From the NCBI GenBank assembly GCA_039980135.1, contig JBDXCV010000002.1, positions 1 through 64,000 on the forward strand: a stretch of 64,000 nucleotides of DNA. Direction: 5' to 3'. The translations under genes and the position numbers were made by a program. Origin of the DNA: Alphaproteobacteria bacterium (GTDB lineage: Bacteria > Pseudomonadota > Alphaproteobacteria > UBA6615). Below are positions 17,310 to 25,762 of the stretch, in pieces; the first letter of the stretch is position 1; each line of letters opens with the position of its first letter. A model generated the notes under the pieces. It saw only the letters and a program-made list of their open reading frames with translations. It was not told the origin of the DNA and searched no databases.

Positions 17310-17858
17310 ATGGCCGAAGAAGAGACGAACGAAGACGACGGCGCCGACATCGACGCGGCAGGTGATGAGGATTTCGACGACGAGGGCGGACCCCGGAAGT
17401 CGAAAAAGAAGAAACTCATCATGATCGCGCTGCCGGTGCTGCTCCTTTTGATCGGGGGCGGCGCGTTCATGACCGGCATGTTCGATTCGGTTTTGGGCGG
17501 CGGTGATGAGCATGCCGAGGAAGCGGTCGAGGAACATGACAAGGCCGAAGCGAATTCGGTTTACTACGAACTGCCCCAGATGCTGGTGAATCTGAACAGC
17601 CCCGGGCGGCGCTCGAATTTCCTGAAAATCATCGTTTCGCTTGAACTCACGGATGCCCACGACATCGAGAAGCTCGAATCCTCGATGCCGCGGATCGTTG
17701 ACAATTTCCAGGTCTATCTCCGCGAACTGCGGGTCGAGGATCTGCGTGGTTCGGCCGGCATATACCGCTTGCGCGAGGAACTGCTGTTCCGCGTCAACGC
17801 AGCGGTGCGTCCGGCCCGGGTCACCGACGTGCTGTTCAAGGAAATGCTCGTTCAATAA
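17310..17858 (+). CDS. fliL: Flagellar basal-body associated protein FliL
   Basis: FliL is an inner-membrane protein around the stators. The 182-residue form starting MAEEETNEDD is chosen; the longer frame from 17250 adds an unlikely N-terminus. An acidic cytoplasmic tail and basic KSKKKK precede one membrane segment (about residues 36-58), followed by a periplasmic domain with YYELPQMLVNLNSPGRRSNFLKI and C-terminal RVTDVLFKEMLVQ. First gene of a seven-gene motor operon; fliM follows within 20 bp. Confidence 0.94.
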   Translation: MAEEETNEDDGADIDAAGDEDFDDEGGPRKSKKKKLIMIALPVLLLLIGGGAFMTGMFDSVLGGGDEHAEEAVEEHDKAEANSVYYELPQMLVNLNSPGRRSNFLKIIVSLELTDAHDIEKLESSMPRIVDNFQVYLRELRVEDLRGSAGIYRLREELLFRVNAAVRPARVTDVLFKEMLVQ

Positions 17859-17873: not shown

Positions 17874-18935
17874 GTGGTGAGTTTGGAAGATACTGAAGAC
17901 AACGCATTGAGCGACGAAGCAGCTGCCGCCCCGCCGATGGCGGCGGAGGACGGCGACGACGAGACGGGCAATCGCGTCCTGGATCAGGACGAGATCGACA
18001 GTCTTCTCGGTTTCGACGGCTATGACGGCGAGAATGAAGACGACGGTATTTCCGTTCTCATCAATTCCGCGCTCGTCAATTATGAACGCCTGCCGATGCT
18101 CGAGGTCGTCTACGATCGCCTCGTTCGATTGATGACCACGAGCCTGCGCAACTTCACATCCGACAATGTGGAAGTGTCGATCGACTCCATCCAGTCGATC
18201 CGGTTTGGCGACTATCTGAATTCCATTCCGCTGCCCGCCATGCTCGGCGTGTTCCGCGCAGAGGAGTGGGACAATTACGGTCTCCTGACCGTCGACAGCT
18301 CCCTGATTTACTCGACCGTGGATGTGCTTCTCGGCGGGCGCCGCGGCACCGCCGCGATGCGGATCGAAGGTCGGCCCTACACGACCATCGAACGCAATCT
18401 GGTGGAGCGGATGATCAACGTGGTCCTGGTGGACCTCTCGGCCGCGTTCGATCCGCTGGCACCGATCAATTTTCGGCTCGACCGGCTCGAGACAAACCCC
18501 CGGTTCGCGACGATCGGCCGGCCGGCGAACGCCGGCATCATTACGCGATTGCGGATCGATATGGAGGACCGTGGCGGCAAGCTCGAACTGATGCTGCCCT
18601 ATGCGACCCTCGAGCCCGTTCGTGACGTATTGCTGCAGATGTTCATGGGCGAAAAATTCGGCCGGGATTCGATCTGGGAGAACCATCTCGCATCCGAACT
18701 CTGGCAGACCGACGTCCCGCTGCGCGCGGTGCTCGACGAGCAGACGATCTCGCTCAACGAGGCCTTGAATCTGAAGAAGGGGCAGCATTTGCCGCTGAAT
18801 ACCGGCCCCGATTCCGAAATCAAACTCTATTGCGGCGAGGTGCCGATGTTCAGTGGCCGGATCGGTCGCAAGGGCAACATGGTCGCGGTCCAGGTCGAGG
18901 AACGCATGGCTGCAGCCGAGGAAATTGTCGAATGA
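17874..18935 (+). CDS. fliM: Flagellar motor switch protein FliM
   Basis: FliM is the C-ring switch protein that binds CheY-P. The 353-residue protein has the CheY-binding motif LDQDEIDSLLG (about residues 36-46) after an acidic N-terminal tail, a middle CheC-like domain, and a C-terminal SpoA domain (about 270-345). The start is GTG, either of two adjacent GTG codons, preceded by TAGGTG; ATG is not available. It overlaps the next gene by 4 bp. Confidence 0.96.
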   Translation: MVSLEDTEDNALSDEAAAAPPMAAEDGDDETGNRVLDQDEIDSLLGFDGYDGENEDDGISVLINSALVNYERLPMLEVVYDRLVRLMTTSLRNFTSDNVEVSIDSIQSIRFGDYLNSIPLPAMLGVFRAEEWDNYGLLTVDSSLIYSTVDVLLGGRRGTAAMRIEGRPYTTIERNLVERMINVVLVDLSAAFDPLAPINFRLDRLETNPRFATIGRPANAGIITRLRIDMEDRGGKLELMLPYATLEPVRDVLLQMFMGEKFGRDSIWENHLASELWQTDVPLRAVLDEQTISLNEALNLKKGQHLPLNTGPDSEIKLYCGEVPMFSGRIGRKGNMVAVQVEERMAAAEEIVE

Positions 18936-19498
18936 GTGTCGCCATAATGCTGGACGTTGTTGTCGCCGCACTCCTGATCGCAACGATCACCTACGCTGTC
19001 ATCCTGAACCGGAAGCTGGGTCGCATGCGTCTCGACCGCAGCGGGTTCGAGAAAATGCTCAAACAGTTCGTTGCCGCGACGGAGCGTGCGGAAAGCGGGG
19101 TGGCCCTGCTGCAGCGTGTGGCCGATGCCAGCGCTTCCGAGCTGGATGACAAGCGCGGCTCGACCACGGCGCTTCGTGACGACCTCGAATTTCTGGTCTC
19201 GCGGGCCGAGGCGCAGGCGAGCAAACTCGAAACGCTGATTGCCAGCGGTCGATCGCGCGAATTGAAGCGCGCCGAGACGCCGACATCGAATATGAATCAG
19301 CCGCGCGACGTGCCGCGCAAGACGCGCGCGCCCGGCGACGATCCGGAAGCACGGTATCTTTTCGAGCCTTCCGAGGAAGCGCTGGCCCCCGCCGAGCATG
19401 CGTTCGACGAATCCGGCGACGCAGAGGCCGTCGACAAGACCCCGGCCTGGCTGGCCTCCGCCCGCAAGATGGCCGGTGTCGACGAGGTGCTGCGCTGA
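18932..19498 (+). CDS. DUF6468-type flagellar-operon membrane protein
   Basis: A 188-residue protein with one N-terminal membrane segment (about residues 5-25, LDVVVAALLIATITYAVIL), then a basic stretch (NRKLGRMRLDRS), a helical probable coiled coil (about 40-105) and an acidic, likely disordered C-terminal half. It ends PAWLASARKMAGVDEVLR. This pattern next to fliM fits DUF6468, a family of unknown function found in alphaproteobacterial flagellar operons. The start overlaps the fliM stop (ATGA), and its stop shares a base with the motE start. The family name is from memory; the role is unknown. Confidence 0.78.
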   Translation: MSVAIMLDVVVAALLIATITYAVILNRKLGRMRLDRSGFEKMLKQFVAATERAESGVALLQRVADASASELDDKRGSTTALRDDLEFLVSRAEAQASKLETLIASGRSRELKRAETPTSNMNQPRDVPRKTRAPGDDPEARYLFEPSEEALAPAEHAFDESGDAEAVDKTPAWLASARKMAGVDEVLR

Positions 19499-20166
19499 TG
19501 GGTCGTCTGATCGGAAAGTTTCTTCGGGCCGTTCGCCTGCTGCCCGTCCTGGTGGTGGCGTCGGTGTTGCTGCTGACCGTACGCGCGGGTGAGTTCGCCG
19601 GCGGTATCGAACTCGGCGGTACCACGGTGGCGCTTGCGGAAACCAAGAGCGAGGCGCCTGCGAAACCGGCCGCGGCGCCCGCGGCGCGTGCTCCGGAGCC
19701 GGTGGACGACGATTCCTTCGATCCCGTCACCCGGTTCACAGATGAGGAACTCGAGATTCTGCAGGATCTCGCGAAACGCCGGCAGGAATTGATCGCGCGC
19801 GAAGACGAGATAGATTCCCGCAATCGCCTTCTGGACGCGGCCGAGGCCCGGATCGATACGCGAATCACCGAGTTGCAGGAGATCCGCAACGCGATCGAGG
19901 CGCTCGTGCGTCAGTACGACAAACAGGAACAGGCCGAGCTGGAAAGCGTCGTCAAGATTTACGAGACGATGAAGCCGAAGGATGCGGCCCGCATTCTCGG
20001 CGAGCTCGAACTGACGACCCTGCTGGGCATCATGGAGCGCATGAACACCCGGAAAACCGCCCCGATCCTGGCGGCGATGCAGCCCGAACGCGCACGCGAA
20101 GTGACGGAAGAACTGGCCCGGCGCAAGACCGTCGACTTGTCGTCGCCGCGCGCCGTGGGCGGCTAG
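19498..20166 (+). CDS. motE: MotE-like flagellar motility protein
   Basis: A 222-residue exported or membrane-anchored protein. It has an N-terminal hydrophobic segment (about 8-29), a Pro/Ala linker, a long coiled coil (about 80-145, TDEELEILQDLAKRRQELI...) and a C-terminal MgtE-N-like helical domain with YETMKPKDAARILGELE and MNTRKTAPILAAMQPERA. This architecture is that of MotE, the periplasmic chaperone of the MotC stator component in rhizobia. No MotC is recognised here, but the large periplasmic protein three genes downstream may take a related place. Confidence 0.85.
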   Translation: MGRLIGKFLRAVRLLPVLVVASVLLLTVRAGEFAGGIELGGTTVALAETKSEAPAKPAAAPAARAPEPVDDDSFDPVTRFTDEELEILQDLAKRRQELIAREDEIDSRNRLLDAAEARIDTRITELQEIRNAIEALVRQYDKQEQAELESVVKIYETMKPKDAARILGELELTTLLGIMERMNTRKTAPILAAMQPERAREVTEELARRKTVDLSSPRAVGG

Positions 20167-20209: not shown

Positions 20210-20914
20210 ATGGCGACATCGAACACAACTGAGATTTCCGAAGGACCGGCCATCGCCGCGCCGCGCCGCGGTTCGCGTGGCGGTCCGTCGGGCGTGATGT
20301 CGATGTTGTCCATCTTCCTGTTGTTGCTGGCATTCTTTGTCATGCTCAACACCCTGGCGCAGTTCGAGACGACCAAGACCCGCGCGGTGATCGGCAGCCT
20401 GAATGCCACGTTCAATATTGGCAATCCGTCGGGCCCCGAGCATGAGTTCGGGTCATTCGTCGGCCGCGTCGGGGCCGCGAGCCAGGTGCAGGCCGAGCTG
20501 AATCAGCTCTTGCGCACGCTGTTCGGGGTCGGTCGCTACGAACTCATCCGTCTCGGCAATGTCGTCGTTCTGGATATCGATGCGGACGCGTTGTTCACCC
20601 GCGCGGCCAGACCGTCCCCGGCGCTGCTTGTGTTCGCGAACCGCATCACCGGGCGTGTCCTGCCGCCGCCGCCCGGCACGCGCCTCAATCTCGAAGTCAC
20701 GACCTACCGCGGCGTGGGGAGTCTCGATGGCGCCGACCTCAAGACAATCAACGTCGCGACCCGCCGTGCCGGCGCAATCGTTCGCGGGTTCGAGCGCGTC
20801 GGCTTCGAGGCCGATCAATTGGTCGCCGGCCTGGCCGAAGGCAGCCCGAGAAAAATTCGCATCGAGTTTCGCGTCACCGATCTGCTCTCGCGGACCCGCG
20901 GGGTATCACCGTGA
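20210..20914 (+). CDS. MotB-like protein lacking the ion-channel aspartate
   Basis: A 234-residue protein with a MotB-like layout: basic cytoplasmic N-terminus, one membrane segment (about residues 29-50, including LLAFFVMLNTLA) and a periplasmic domain with loose OmpA-like character. Aligned with the next gene on AFFV, the position of the proton-binding Asp is Ser (about residue 34). The C-terminal OmpA signature (RRVDI) is not seen, only IRIEFRVTDLL. It may be a non-conducting partner of the next gene product. Overlaps it by 4 bp. Confidence 0.75.
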   Translation: MATSNTTEISEGPAIAAPRRGSRGGPSGVMSMLSIFLLLLAFFVMLNTLAQFETTKTRAVIGSLNATFNIGNPSGPEHEFGSFVGRVGAASQVQAELNQLLRTLFGVGRYELIRLGNVVVLDIDADALFTRAARPSPALLVFANRITGRVLPPPPGTRLNLEVTTYRGVGSLDGADLKTINVATRRAGAIVRGFERVGFEADQLVAGLAEGSPRKIRIEFRVTDLLSRTRGVSP

Positions 20915-21660
20915 GCGCGACGGAAACCGCCCCAACGATCGTCGGCCGTCCGATGACGGCGGCCCGAAAGAAGCCGGCCGGCCAGCCACCCCAGTGGCTC
21001 GTTACGTTTGCCGATCTGGCAGCCGTTCTGGTCGCGTTTTTCGTCCTGATGTTCTCAATGTCCGAGGTGGATACCGATCGTTGGAATGGCGCAGTGGATG
21101 CCCTCGACCGTCAGTTCGATCTCACCCGGGTGGCCGAAAAGGCGAAGCCGGCCGCGGAGCAGAACATCACGCAGCTTGTGGCCGAAGATGGGCTCGATCT
21201 GGGTTACTTGCGGCGGATTCTTGCCGGCCATGTGGCGGAAGAGCCGATCCTCGAAGGCGCGCGGTTGCGGGTTGCCGACGGGTCGCTGATCGTCACGCTC
21301 CCGGCCGGACTGTTGTTTGAAAGCGGCGGTTCGCGGATCGGGGCCGATGGGCGGCGCTCGGTCTTCGTCCTCGCCGGCGTACTGGGGCGTATCAAGAACG
21401 ATATCGAAGTCGTCGGTCATGCCGATCCGCGTCTCGTGCGCGACGGTGGCAATGACACCAACTGGGAATTGTCGCTCGCCCGCGCGGCGTCCGTGGCGCG
21501 CGCGCTCAACGCCGCAGGGGTATCGCGGACAATTCGTGTCGCCGGGGCGGGGGCGGGGCGCTTCGACGACATTGATCCCGATCTGCCGGCGGCCCGGCGG
21601 CTGGAACTGGCGCGCCGTGTCGACATCGTCGTCCGGGATCGGTTCGGAGGTTTGAAATGA
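20911..21660 (+). CDS. MotB-family protein with OmpA-like domain
   Basis: A 249-residue stator-type protein. The membrane segment WLVTFADLAAVLVAFFVLMFS (about residues 29-49) keeps the conserved Asp35 that carries ions through the stator in MotB. The C-terminal OmpA-like domain (about 120-245) shows VVGHADPR, NWELSLARAASVARAL and ARRVDIVV, giving the Asp and Arg that bind peptidoglycan. No MotA homologue is in the window, so whether this is the main MotB or an accessory stator part is open. Start and stop both overlap neighbours (ATGA). Confidence 0.85.
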   Translation: MSATETAPTIVGRPMTAARKKPAGQPPQWLVTFADLAAVLVAFFVLMFSMSEVDTDRWNGAVDALDRQFDLTRVAEKAKPAAEQNITQLVAEDGLDLGYLRRILAGHVAEEPILEGARLRVADGSLIVTLPAGLLFESGGSRIGADGRRSVFVLAGVLGRIKNDIEVVGHADPRLVRDGGNDTNWELSLARAASVARALNAAGVSRTIRVAGAGAGRFDDIDPDLPAARRLELARRVDIVVRDRFGGLK

Positions 21661-24600
21661 CGCGTTGGATGAAAACCCATCGACTGATGAACAGGTCCCG
21701 TCGAAATGTGCGGGGATTCTGGGTCGGGCTCGTCATCGCGGGCGCGCTCCTCGTGACGCCTTTGACCGCCCTTGCCACGGACGCCGTGACGGTGCGCGCC
21801 GGTGAGCATCCCGGCTTCGGCCGCATCGTGCTCGACCTTCCGCGCGCGATCGACTACGAGGCCCGGGCCGACGGAGACCGGATCGAAATCAAGTTCGACA
21901 CGCCGATCGAGGCCGCGTTCGACGATGTATCGCGGGTCCTGGGCGACTATGTGCAGGCGATCTCACTGGAAGGCGGCAACACCATCGTCGCCACCCTGAC
22001 CGGGCCGCATCGGATGCGGGACTTCATCAATGAAGGTTCGGTCGTGATCGACCTCCGGAAGGTCGCGCCTTCGGCCGCCGGTCGGGACATCCCCGAAGTC
22101 GCGACCCGCTTCGGCCGCCACGCGAATTTCACGCGCCTGGTGTTCGACTGGTCGTCGAATGTGGGCTACCGGGTCGACAACCGAAACGGCGACGTGACGA
22201 TGCGGTTCAGCCGGGCCGCCGATATACGTTTCAAGCCCGCAGATGTCCGCGCCGCGCGCGGCTTCGCATCCGCATCGGCCGTGCCCGATTCCGCGAACGC
22301 CACGATCGTGCATCTCGATGTCACCGGGCGCATCCGCCATTTCCGCGACGGGCTCAAGGTCGTGGTCGATGTGTTCGACACGCCCCGGCCGGCAACGCAG
22401 ACCGCCGCCGCGGCGCCCACGGAGACTCCGTCGAAGGCGCCAGCGCAGGCATCATCGCGGGCACAGACACCCCCGCCCGTGCCGCCGGCACAGGCGGTTG
22501 CAGCACCGACCGGGCCGGTCTCGCTGATCTCCGATGCGAACGCGGTCAGTGCGGACCGAGCCCCGCAAGCGAACTCGGAACCTGATCCCGTGATCCAGAC
22601 GACCGCGCTGGCTGCGATACAGGGCACGGACACGCCACAGGCTGTTTCCGCACCGCTGGACCTGCGCCCGCCGGCGATGGTTCCTGCGCCGCGAACCCTC
22701 GATCGTCTGGCCGACAACGTCGCCGCGCTCGAAATCAAAGTCGAAGCCGAACTCGATGGCGCGCTCATTCGTTTTCCGTTTATTTCGCCGACCGGCGCCG
22801 CCCTGTTTCGGCGCGGCGGACGCCTTTGGATCGTGTTTGATCGCGTCGCGCGGATCGACACGGAACGAATCATGTCTGTGGCCGGTGAATTCGTGCACGA
22901 TGTCGAGCAGGTGCCGCATGAGCGCGCGACGATACTCCGCCTGACGACGATCCCCGGCTTCAATGCCTTGAGCGTGCGCGACGGCAACGAGTGGGAAATC
23001 GTCCTGGCGCCGCAGCTGTTGAAGCCCGAAATCCCGATGAACGTGATGGCCAATATCGGCAGCGTACCGTCCGTTACCGTTGGGCCCACGGTGCCCGGAA
23101 TTCCGGTCAGTATCGTCGATCCTGAAGTCGGCGATGCGATCCATGTGATCCCGGTGCGCCAGACGGGCGACGGGGTCGCGCGGCGCCATTCTTTCCCGGA
23201 TTTCCGGTTGCTGGTTTCCATCCAGGGCGTCGCGATTGTGCCGGTCTCCGACCGCGTCGATGTGCGCGCGGGCGACGACCGGGTCATCGTCACTGCCGGC
23301 GGCGGGTTGCGTCTGACGGAGGCTGCCGCGCGCACACGTGTGCTTGCCGACGGCCCCGACGACGATATCGAGCGCCTGTTCCGCTTCGTCGAGTGGCGCC
23401 ATGCCGAGCTCGGTGAGTTCGCGGCATCCGAACGTGAGTTGCTGGCGCAGGTCGGCAAGGCGGAGCCCGCGGACCGCAACACCGCCCGGCTTGAACTGGC
23501 GCGATTCTACGTGGCTTACGGTCTCGCGGACCGGGCGATCGGCCTGATCGACGTGATGGTCGGCGAGGCGCCCGAGTTGGAGCGGGTCCCGACCCTGCGC
23601 GCGTTGCGCGGCGCCGCCCGTTTCGTGATGGGCGATGTCGCCGGGGCCGAGCGGGATCTGTTCGATCGCGAGCTTGATCTGGAGCCGGAGCTGGAACTTT
23701 GGCGGACCGCCATCCGCGGCGCCCAGGGCGATACGCTCAACGCCTCGATCGAAATGCAGACAGCCGAGCGGTTCGTTCAGGACTACCCCGATTCACTGCG
23801 CACACGGTTCGGGTTTCTGGGCGCCGAACTGTCGCTCGCGGCACACGACCCGGTGGCCAGCGAATTCTGGCTCGAGGTCATCGGCGAAGCCGACCTGACC
23901 CCCGCCGAGATCGATCGTCGCCGTGTCCTGCAGGCCGGGATTGCCGCCCAGAATGGCGAAGTCGATACCGCGATCGCGCTGTATGACCGGACGATCAACG
24001 GCCGCGATCGGCTGAGCCGCGCGCTGGCCGTGCTGGAGAAGACCGAGCTGCTGCTGTCGGAAGAAGACATGTCGCCGGCGGAAGCCGTCGAGGCTCTGGA
24101 CAGCCTGCGTTACGTGTGGCGCGGGGATACGCTTGAATTCCGTATCCTGCGCCGGCTCGGGCAACTCGAGCTGGCGGCCGGCGACTACCGCGACGGCCTG
24201 CGCACCCTGAAGCGCGCGGCGAGCAATTTCCCCGAACATCCCCTGGCGCCACTCCTGGCCGACGAGATGCGCATGCTGTTCGAACGGCTCTATCTCGAAG
24301 GCGAGGCCGACGAGCTTGCGCCGATCACCGCGATCGCCCTGTTCAACGAGTTTCGCGAGCTGGCACCGGCCGGCGCTGCGGGCGACGCCATGATCCGGCG
24401 GCTGGCCGACCGCCTGGTTGCCGTCGATCTGCTGGATCAGGCCGCCGAACTGCTGGCCCATCAGGTCGAGTTCCGCCTCGTGGGTGTCGAAAAGGCGGAG
24501 ATCGGGGTTCGTCTGGCGATGGTGCAATTGCTCAACCGTAAACCGGAGCTGGCGCTCGAGGCGCTCGAACAAAGCGAGGTGGGCGGGCTCCCGGACGCGC

Positions 24601-25091
24601 TGATGAAGGAACGCCAGGTTGCCGTGTCACGCGCCCGCACCCTGCTGGGCGAGTATGGCCCCGCGCTGGCGTGGCTGGATGGCCTGGATGGCGAGGAAGT
24701 CGATCTGCTGCGCGCCGAAATTCACTGGCGGTCCCAGGACTGGAAGGCCGCCGCGCGGGTCCTGACGCGGCTCGCCGGCCCGCTGCCGGGCCCGGACGAA
24801 ACCCTTGGTCCCGAACAAAGCCGCCACGTGATGAACCGCGCCGTGGCGCTGGCGCTGGCGGGCGAATCGAACCGCCTGACCGCGCTCGCCACGACCCATG
24901 GGGCGGCGATGGCGGGAACCCCTTTCGGCGCGGACTTCCGGGTTCTCACCGCGGTGGAAACCGCCCCGCGCGACTTCGCCGAAGTCCTCAAGCGCGTCGC
25001 CAAGGTGGATGAACTCCAGGCCTTCATGGACAGCTACCGGGCCCGCCTCGCGGCAGCCTCGGATGGATCCCCGGCAACCACCGGTTCGTGA
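21657..25091 (+). CDS. Large periplasmic TPR protein of the motor operon
   Basis: I do not recognise a named family for this 1144-residue protein. An N-terminal basic segment and signal-like helix (about 20-42, ending ALA-TD) suggest export. Then come beta-rich AMIN-like repeats (about 43-240), a Pro/Ala/Thr-rich linker (about 245-335), another beta region (about 350-550) and a long helical TPR-like solenoid (about 575-1125). It overlaps the MotB-family gene by 4 bp and ends the operon, so it is likely made with the stator proteins. A periplasmic scaffold for motor or stator assembly is a fair guess. Confidence 0.8.
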   Translation: MTRWMKTHRLMNRSRRNVRGFWVGLVIAGALLVTPLTALATDAVTVRAGEHPGFGRIVLDLPRAIDYEARADGDRIEIKFDTPIEAAFDDVSRVLGDYVQAISLEGGNTIVATLTGPHRMRDFINEGSVVIDLRKVAPSAAGRDIPEVATRFGRHANFTRLVFDWSSNVGYRVDNRNGDVTMRFSRAADIRFKPADVRAARGFASASAVPDSANATIVHLDVTGRIRHFRDGLKVVVDVFDTPRPATQTAAAAPTETPSKAPAQASSRAQTPPPVPPAQAVAAPTGPVSLISDANAVSADRAPQANSEPDPVIQTTALAAIQGTDTPQAVSAPLDLRPPAMVPAPRTLDRLADNVAALEIKVEAELDGALIRFPFISPTGAALFRRGGRLWIVFDRVARIDTERIMSVAGEFVHDVEQVPHERATILRLTTIPGFNALSVRDGNEWEIVLAPQLLKPEIPMNVMANIGSVPSVTVGPTVPGIPVSIVDPEVGDAIHVIPVRQTGDGVARRHSFPDFRLLVSIQGVAIVPVSDRVDVRAGDDRVIVTAGGGLRLTEAAARTRVLADGPDDDIERLFRFVEWRHAELGEFAASERELLAQVGKAEPADRNTARLELARFYVAYGLADRAIGLIDVMVGEAPELERVPTLRALRGAARFVMGDVAGAERDLFDRELDLEPELELWRTAIRGAQGDTLNASIEMQTAERFVQDYPDSLRTRFGFLGAELSLAAHDPVASEFWLEVIGEADLTPAEIDRRRVLQAGIAAQNGEVDTAIALYDRTINGRDRLSRALAVLEKTELLLSEEDMSPAEAVEALDSLRYVWRGDTLEFRILRRLGQLELAAGDYRDGLRTLKRAASNFPEHPLAPLLADEMRMLFERLYLEGEADELAPITAIALFNEFRELAPAGAAGDAMIRRLADRLVAVDLLDQAAELLAHQVEFRLVGVEKAEIGVRLAMVQLLNRKPELALEALEQSEVGGLPDALMKERQVAVSRARTLLGEYGPALAWLDGLDGEEVDLLRAEIHWRSQDWKAAARVLTRLAGPLPGPDETLGPEQSRHVMNRAVALALAGESNRLTALATTHGAAMAGTPFGADFRVLTAVETAPRDFAEVLKRVAKVDELQAFMDSYRARLAAASDGSPATTGS

Positions 25092-25126: not shown

Positions 25127-25762
25127 TCAGCCGCCGGGCCGGACCAGCGCCGTGACAAATCCCGCCCCGACCAGGAAGCCGGCGCCGATCCGGTTGAGAC
25201 GGCGCAGCATGGGCGGTGAATGAAACCGCGTTCGCATTTCTCCCGCCAGCACAGCCCAGATCACGATATTCACCGCTGCCAGCGTAAGGAACGTCGCCTC
25301 GAGGATGATGAATTGGGGCCAGAGCGGCTGCGCGACATCGACGAATTGGGGTACGAACGCGACGAAAAACACGATGCCCTTGGGATTGAGGGCTGTCACG
25401 ATGTAGGCGTTCGCGAACATGCGAAACCAGCCGCCGGGCGCGGCCCCGGCGGCCCGCCCCGGCGGTGTGGGTGTGTTTGAAGAGGCGCGCCACATTCGGA
25501 TGCCCAGCCAGACGAGGTACGCCGCGCCGGCCAGTTTCAAAGCCGTGAACATCGCCGCCGACGCGGCGAGGATGGCACCGGCTCCGAGCAACGATAAGGT
25601 CATGGCGGTGAAATCCCCCAACGCGACTCCGGGCACCGTGGCCCAGCCCGAGACGCGGCCGCGATTCAGCGCGTAGCTCACGACGAGCATGACCGTGGGG
25701 CCGGGCACCGCGAGCAGGGCGGTGCTGGCCAGCGCAAAGGCGAACCAGAGTTCAAACGACAA
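25127..25762 (-). CDS. LysE/RhtB family amino-acid exporter
   Basis: A 211-residue inner-membrane protein with about six membrane segments and the family N-terminal motif VPGPTVMLVVSYALNRGRVSGWATVPGVALGD (start of that run about residue 19) and LKLAGAAYLVWLGIRMWR. Such proteins export amino acids or homoserine-lactone-like compounds; substrate unknown. It lies downstream of fliP with a gap of about 120 bp and is not functionally related to it. Confidence 0.92.
   Translation of the reverse strand: MSFELWFAFALASTALLAVPGPTVMLVVSYALNRGRVSGWATVPGVALGDFTAMTLSLLGAGAILAASAAMFTALKLAGAAYLVWLGIRMWRASSNTPTPPGRAAGAAPGGWFRMFANAYIVTALNPKGIVFFVAFVPQFVDVAQPLWPQFIILEATFLTLAAVNIVIWAVLAGEMRTRFHSPPMLRRLNRIGAGFLVGAGFVTALVRPGG

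Follow-up and report, generated by a model that had tools for sequence, protein, structure and literature searches.

The DNA analysed here, referred to as the window, is a stretch of 64,000 nucleotides from an alphaproteobacterium of the UBA6615 lineage (positions 1 to 64,000 of contig JBDXCV010000002.1, assembly GCA_039980135.1), and the gene under study closes its flagellar motor operon. This motK-type gene (21657..25091, forward strand) is a single intact open reading frame with an ATG start and encodes an exported AMIN/TPR protein of 1144 amino acids (aa). It is the last gene of a fliL-pflI-motE operon, whose members all lie on the forward strand and either overlap or are separated by short gaps. 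These are: fliL (17310..17858), fliM (17874..18935), pflI (DUF6468; 18932..19498), motE (19498..20166), the two motB paralogues MotBa (20210..20914) and MotBb (20911..21660), and motK. The motE product is of the COG3334/FlgY type, with an MgtE_N domain (28.6 bits, Pfam cut-off 25.9) and a match to the FlbB model (E-value 2e-8); MotE is an E-ring protein and a known partner of MotK. MotBb has the proton-carrying Asp and an OmpA-type peptidoglycan motif, while MotBa has Ser in place of the Asp and lacks the motif.

The motK start codon overlaps the MotBb stop codon by 4 bases (ATGA, 21657-21660). An earlier note on this DNA, made from the letters alone, had described a 1144-residue reading frame coupled to a MotB-family gene and ending a motor operon, and both parts of this description were confirmed; a chance reading frame is excluded by 76 full-length relatives, found at loci from about 65 families (median length 1112 aa, range 810–1412 aa). 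The neighbour is indeed a MotB paralogue, but it is not the main stator gene, as canonical MotAB is encoded elsewhere in the genome. Downstream, between motK and fliP, lies a LysE-like transporter gene (recognised by eye only; 25127-25762, reverse strand); in the sister genome L019 this place is filled by a different gene.

The window protein begins with a Sec-type signal segment (residues 1–40, 21657..21776, with an alternative start at Met11), delimited by hydrophobicity and the family alignment; in a hydrophobicity scan of residues 5–60, the export segment proper spans residues 18–41 and is followed by ALAT-DA. It is followed, on the same strand, by AMIN domain 1 (about residues 44–134, 21786..22058), AMIN domain 2 (about residues 145–241, 22089..22379), a proline-rich linker (residues 246–350, 22392..22706), a third AMIN-type repeat (residues 355–460, 22719..23036), a conserved, mostly beta region holding a DPEVGD motif (residues 470–565, 23064..23351) and a TPR-type helical solenoid (residues 566–1135, 23352..25061). 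The linker, whose length varies between relatives, contains 19 prolines in 105 residues (about 18%, compared with about 5% elsewhere in the protein). Sub-profiles of the family covering residues 40–140, 144–245 and 355–460 match one another in hhalign (E-value 3e-27 for the first two; 4e-12 and 3e-13 for the third repeat against repeats 1 and 2), whereas the sub-profile of residues 470–560 gave no match to any of the three AMIN repeats. In Pfam, the AMIN-like model PF24837 recognises the window protein (29.2 bits, cut-off 27), several TPR models do so weakly, below their cut-offs, and no catalytic domain was found; over 40 homologues, the AMIN-like model was matched in 19 and a TPR model in 20.

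The predicted structure of residues 40–245 (predicted local distance difference test score, pLDDT, 78) consists of two copies of a unit of four strands, a helix and four strands. Its best fold match is the AMIN domain of AmiC (4bin; Z 11.5, root-mean-square deviation of 2.8 over 101 residues, falling on AMIN domain 2), followed by PilQ as part of the pilus machine (3jc8; Z 10.4, with a large deviation across two domains) and a protein of cyanobacterial origin (5h3k; Z 10.1), while small heat-shock proteins come next, with Z below 7. Foldseek by itself also retrieved the AmiC, PilQ and 5h3k matches, with weak E-values. On these profiles and models, the window protein is a carrier of three AMIN-type domains, the first two of which are predicted to fold like those of AmiC and PilQ, and profiles together with predicted secondary structure indicate that a C-terminal TPR-type helical repeat is present. 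Hydrophobicity, composition, Pfam and the models thus recovered each of the parts named in the earlier note (an export signal, AMIN-like beta parts, a Pro-rich linker and a TPR solenoid).

A protein with these parts has been studied in Cereibacter sphaeroides. Its MotK (RSWS8N_12065) is periplasmic, is needed for rotation and not for assembly of the flagellum, binds MotE and MotB2 in vitro, and is encoded in the operon fliL2-pflI-motE-motA2-motK (Velez-Gonzalez et al. 2024, PMC10954123). In the same work, CC_2058 of Caulobacter was proposed as a distant MotK homologue by structure, not by BLAST (PMC10954123); CC_2058 is FssB, the deletion of which keeps the filaments and abolishes swimming, a paralysis analogous to that of a motB mutant (PMC7885107). 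The order FliL-PflI-MotE-MotA-MotK was found in our data at five loci of the family f21 and on a plasmid of Paroceanicella profunda (Paracoccaceae). The P. profunda MotK matched two profiles of the window family (E-values 1.1e-17 and 1.7e-11), its AMIN and TPR segments following one another as in the window family, and the f21 MotK proteins scored 43–74 bits against the window-family profile. The loci of these matches have the published MotK operon order, and by sequence the window family and the Paracoccaceae MotK proteins are therefore a single family; the window gene is almost certainly a long member of the MotK/FssB family, in which FssB/CC_2058 is included as proposed in the literature from structure, together with operon order. 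The statement of the earlier note that no named family comes to mind therefore does not hold, as both MotK (PMC10954123) and FssB/CC_2058 (PMC7885107) had already been studied. Short MotK forms are also present in plasmid-borne flagellar clusters of Erythrobacter aureus (L233, 11431-13602) and Sphingobium sp. V4 (L234, 7431-9563), in which the TPR part alone is recognised; for the former, the annotation gives a 548-aa hypothetical protein within an open frame of 724 codons.

An initial scan of the genome contigs with one protein yielded just one partial relative and was superseded by family and order searches. Of 24 genomes from the window's own order, 7 carry the protein and 7 carry FliM, with an overlap of six; in the remaining carrier of the protein, G004, only a fragment is present, located on a short contig that also has FliP- and FliO-like genes. 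A six-row profile matched 213 of 386 alphaproteobacterial genomes (155 of 266 genera), and FliM was found in 217 of the 386. When only strong matches were counted, 192 genomes had both proteins, 7 the family only, 25 FliM only and 162 neither (Fisher P 5e-71, a value that overstates independence, as the genomes are related, with the label spread over more than a hundred families). FlgI is present in five of the seven family-only genomes, which lack FliM. A clear FliM is present in 200 genomes; 190 of these match the family strongly, and a 40-row profile adds at least 4 others, out of the 10 clear FliM-only cases. Genomes with a divergent FliM were considered as rhizobia, and this was rejected for those tested, the MotB of which fell below the cut-off of the rhizobial model; rhizobial-type MotB was found instead in the family f160. 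In a sample of 299 genomes of the phylum, full-length matches were confined to Alphaproteobacteria, and other classes gave short partial matches only, many at the positions of the AMIN repeats in frames of 400–500 aa, as would be expected if these were amidases.

The usual order at the 76 full-length loci is FliL-FliM-PflI-MotE-(CheY-CheZ)-(MotBa-MotBb)-MotK, and MotE is encoded upstream on the same strand at 57 of the 68 loci with at least 6 kb of upstream sequence. The homologues are thus not mostly found away from flagellar genes, and their presence tracks FliM. This agrees with the earlier note, which had proposed that the periplasmic AMIN/TPR protein may be a functional counterpart of MotC or a disk/scaffold of the motor; that it is a scaffold and does the work of MotC is probable. 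Genes reading as CheY and CheZ stand between motE and motBa in many relatives (L063, L055, L059, L064 and others) and are absent from this point of the operon in the window's own family; a gap of ~1.2 kb before the MotB pair in relatives, considered as a place for motA, holds CheY and CheZ. At L113 (8729-11158), in a genome with FlgI and no FliM match, the motK-type gene lies near two T2SSF pilus-type genes.

The relation to rhizobial MotC can be seen in two ways. MotC is likewise a periplasmic MotE partner, is described as TPR-rich, and has been called a homologue of MotK on structure (PMC13023049, PMC11870540), so that the window protein could be a true MotC homologue with extra AMIN domains, both belonging to one line in which the AMIN part was lost in rhizobia. 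Rhizobia-like genomes with the order MotB-MotC-FliK gave no match to the window family, which speaks for this reading. Rhizobial MotC sequences were obtained from genomes that carry the rhizobial type of MotB. In profile searches in both directions MotC came out among background proteins (best E-value 3.1), and its gene, placed between motB and fliK, does not close the fliL operon. The hhalign comparison of MotC with MotK gave a weak colinear match (P 0.01), in which the MotC (L225) stretch ARLNAPGTIVEEAALRR is aligned with LRYVWRGDTLEFRILRR of MotK (window 23352-25061); this is suggestive of common descent, although neither hmmsearch in both directions nor hhalign makes the homology significant by sequence. 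Descent from one line with MotC is therefore regarded as a possible but rather doubtful reading, while the functional parallel between MotC and MotK stands.

As to function, published work assigns the E-ring to MotE and regards MotC, MotK and CC_2058 as equivalents of PflA (2026 review of the E-ring, PMC13023049; 2025 preprint, PMC11870540). In Campylobacter, PflA forms TPR spokes with an AMIN-like head that join the E-ring and the stators (PMC12222027, PMC11870540). Because it has the same parts as the PflA-type spokes and sits with MotE (MgtE_N), the window protein is read as a spoke or stator-holding scaffold. It would be exported to the periplasm, as its signal segment predicts and as experiment has established for Cereibacter MotK, where its AMIN domains, judged by their fold, probably bind peptidoglycan. 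The TPR solenoid probably binds both the MotE dimers of the E-ring around the MS-ring and the periplasmic part of MotB, by analogy with Cereibacter MotK. A ring of such spokes would tie the MotE E-ring and the peptidoglycan to the stators, holding and activating the stator units, and its loss would leave a complete but paralysed flagellum, as was shown for MotK and FssB. Taken as a whole, a motor spoke or scaffold of the MotK/FssB type is the best explanation of the window gene, with a probability of roughly 0.83. That the protein is an essential stator scaffold is considered very probable; a geometry exactly like that of the PflA spokes is favoured only slightly, and the number and arrangement of the spokes and the role of the two extra AMIN-type domains are inferred. 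As MotK, MotC and CC_2058 have already been treated as PflA-type spokes (PMC11870540, PMC13023049), the earlier note went too far in proposing an undescribed flagellar system.

Several observations weigh against this interpretation. The window protein is nearly twice as long as Cereibacter MotK (1144 versus 652 aa) and has three AMIN-type domains in place of one; its full-length model is poor (pLDDT 45, from a two-row alignment), with about 30 helices across residues 568–1135; peptidoglycan binding by the AMIN domains is a prediction from the fold; and in a few genomes (L093, L113) the motK-type gene lies away from flagellar genes. A search of the PDB with the six-row profile gave no sequence hit at an E-value of 1, and so none to PflA or a solved spoke. 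The window protein does not have the make-up of FimV (a LysM domain, a transmembrane segment and a cytoplasmic TPR part): Pfam gave no LysM match, and the hydrophobic segment seen in the scan of residues 5–60 is the N-terminal export segment.

AMIN domains of AmiC and PilQ bind peptidoglycan, and AMIN proteins often direct amidases. With three domains of this type, the window protein might be mainly a factor for remodelling or anchoring the cell wall, acting in the insertion or polar placement of the flagellum and not as a stator scaffold. This is very improbable, as no catalytic domain was found in it by Pfam, the gene is coupled to motE and MotB-family genes, and mutants of the family still build filaments but, as in motB mutants, these do not turn (PMC7885107, PMC10954123).

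The MotBa-MotBb pair, located upstream of motK at 37 of the 68 loci with at least 6 kb of upstream sequence, raises the question of which stator the scaffold would serve. At the proton site, 40 of 41 MotBa proteins have Ser, Gly, Ala or Thr, and 44 of 46 MotBb proteins have Asp (the MotBb exceptions being L069, which looks like MotBa, and L097, which looks like a chance frame); the peptidoglycan-binding motif has been lost from MotBa and kept in MotBb. In a phylogenetic tree with long branches, the bootstrap of which had not settled, MotBa formed one group (support 98/81), at the base of which stands a sister with Asp (L091); the MotBb rows, with one exception, formed another (99/94). Two first-position paralogues have retained Asp, L091 (6077-6856) and L086 (6907-7641), which branch at the base of the MotBa group or outside it, and these may show the state before the loss of Asp. 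The window genome encodes canonical MotA-MotB elsewhere and a further MotA/MotB-like pair; this third MotB-like locus (L154, G000:C9, about 672 kb) stands beside a MotA/ExbB-like gene, with no flagellar genes near it in the part that was read. MotBa and MotBb were thus rejected as the only MotB of the cell. No MotA gene accompanies the pair at the loci examined, and no description of it was found in the literature searched. Because a recent MotAB survey assigned B subunits by their proximity to A, it would miss such a pair.

The long MotK might then serve MotBa-MotBb and not canonical MotAB, as the dedicated scaffold of a second, hetero-oligomeric MotB-type ring. The MotBb and MotK genes overlap or nearly touch at most of 44 loci, the pair is common upstream of motK, and canonical MotB was also encoded in all 12 tested pair-bearing genomes besides that of the window. 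On the other side, MotE and MotK occur without the pair at 24 loci, the MotK-type proteins of Caulobacter and Cereibacter work without a known pair, and the pair has no MotA beside it. A MotK devoted to the pair is therefore judged unlikely; the wider proposal, that many alphaproteobacterial MotK operons encode a second hetero-oligomeric unit of MotBa and MotBb, separate from canonical MotAB and with MotK as its scaffold, is put forward tentatively, with somewhat less doubt. If true, the motor would contain either a mixed stator of MotA, MotBa and MotBb that has one proton site, or a static ring derived from MotB. The pair could serve to find out how many proton sites are needed by a stator, or lead to a ring that has gone unrecognised.

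Apart from this proposal, the reading of the window gene as a motor spoke or scaffold extends earlier work. Before, the description of MotK came from a single species, its link to Caulobacter CC_2058 was purely structural, and the records seen label members of the family "hypothetical protein". What is new here is the reach of the family across the class, its connection to MotK by sequence, the presence of three AMIN-type domains, and the neighbouring MotB pair. The profiles join long and short forms and, within the sample, detect the family in nearly every alphaproteobacterium that has a clear FliM. A probable rotor-stator scaffold that had seemed local is thus a motor part of the whole class.

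Among known systems, the closest is Cereibacter MotK, which is likewise an exported AMIN and TPR protein ending a fliL-pflI-motE operon, but is 652 aa long with one AMIN-like region (1144 aa and three AMIN-type domains in the window) and is preceded by motA, whereas in the window the MotBa-MotBb pair precedes motK and fliM is also part of the operon. FssB/CC_2058, compared by description only, is a secreted TPR protein encoded right after motE (CC_2059) in published maps and its deletion causes paralysis, while no MotB pair has been reported beside it. MotC of Sinorhizobium and relatives, like MotK, is a periplasmic MotE partner needed for rotation; it is about 430 aa long, has no AMIN domain and is encoded between motB and fliK, and the window protein differs in each of these respects. 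AmiC and PilQ share the AMIN fold with window residues 40–245, but their amidase and secretin domains are absent from the window protein. PflA of Campylobacter and Helicobacter consists of an AMIN-like beta-sandwich, a flexible linker and a TPR superhelix, and the same AMIN-linker-TPR order is found in the window protein. Its partner in the E-ring, FlgY, is the counterpart of MotE, and the window gene is likewise encoded with an E-ring protein; PflA, however, has a PflB partner and one AMIN-type domain, whereas the window protein has three.

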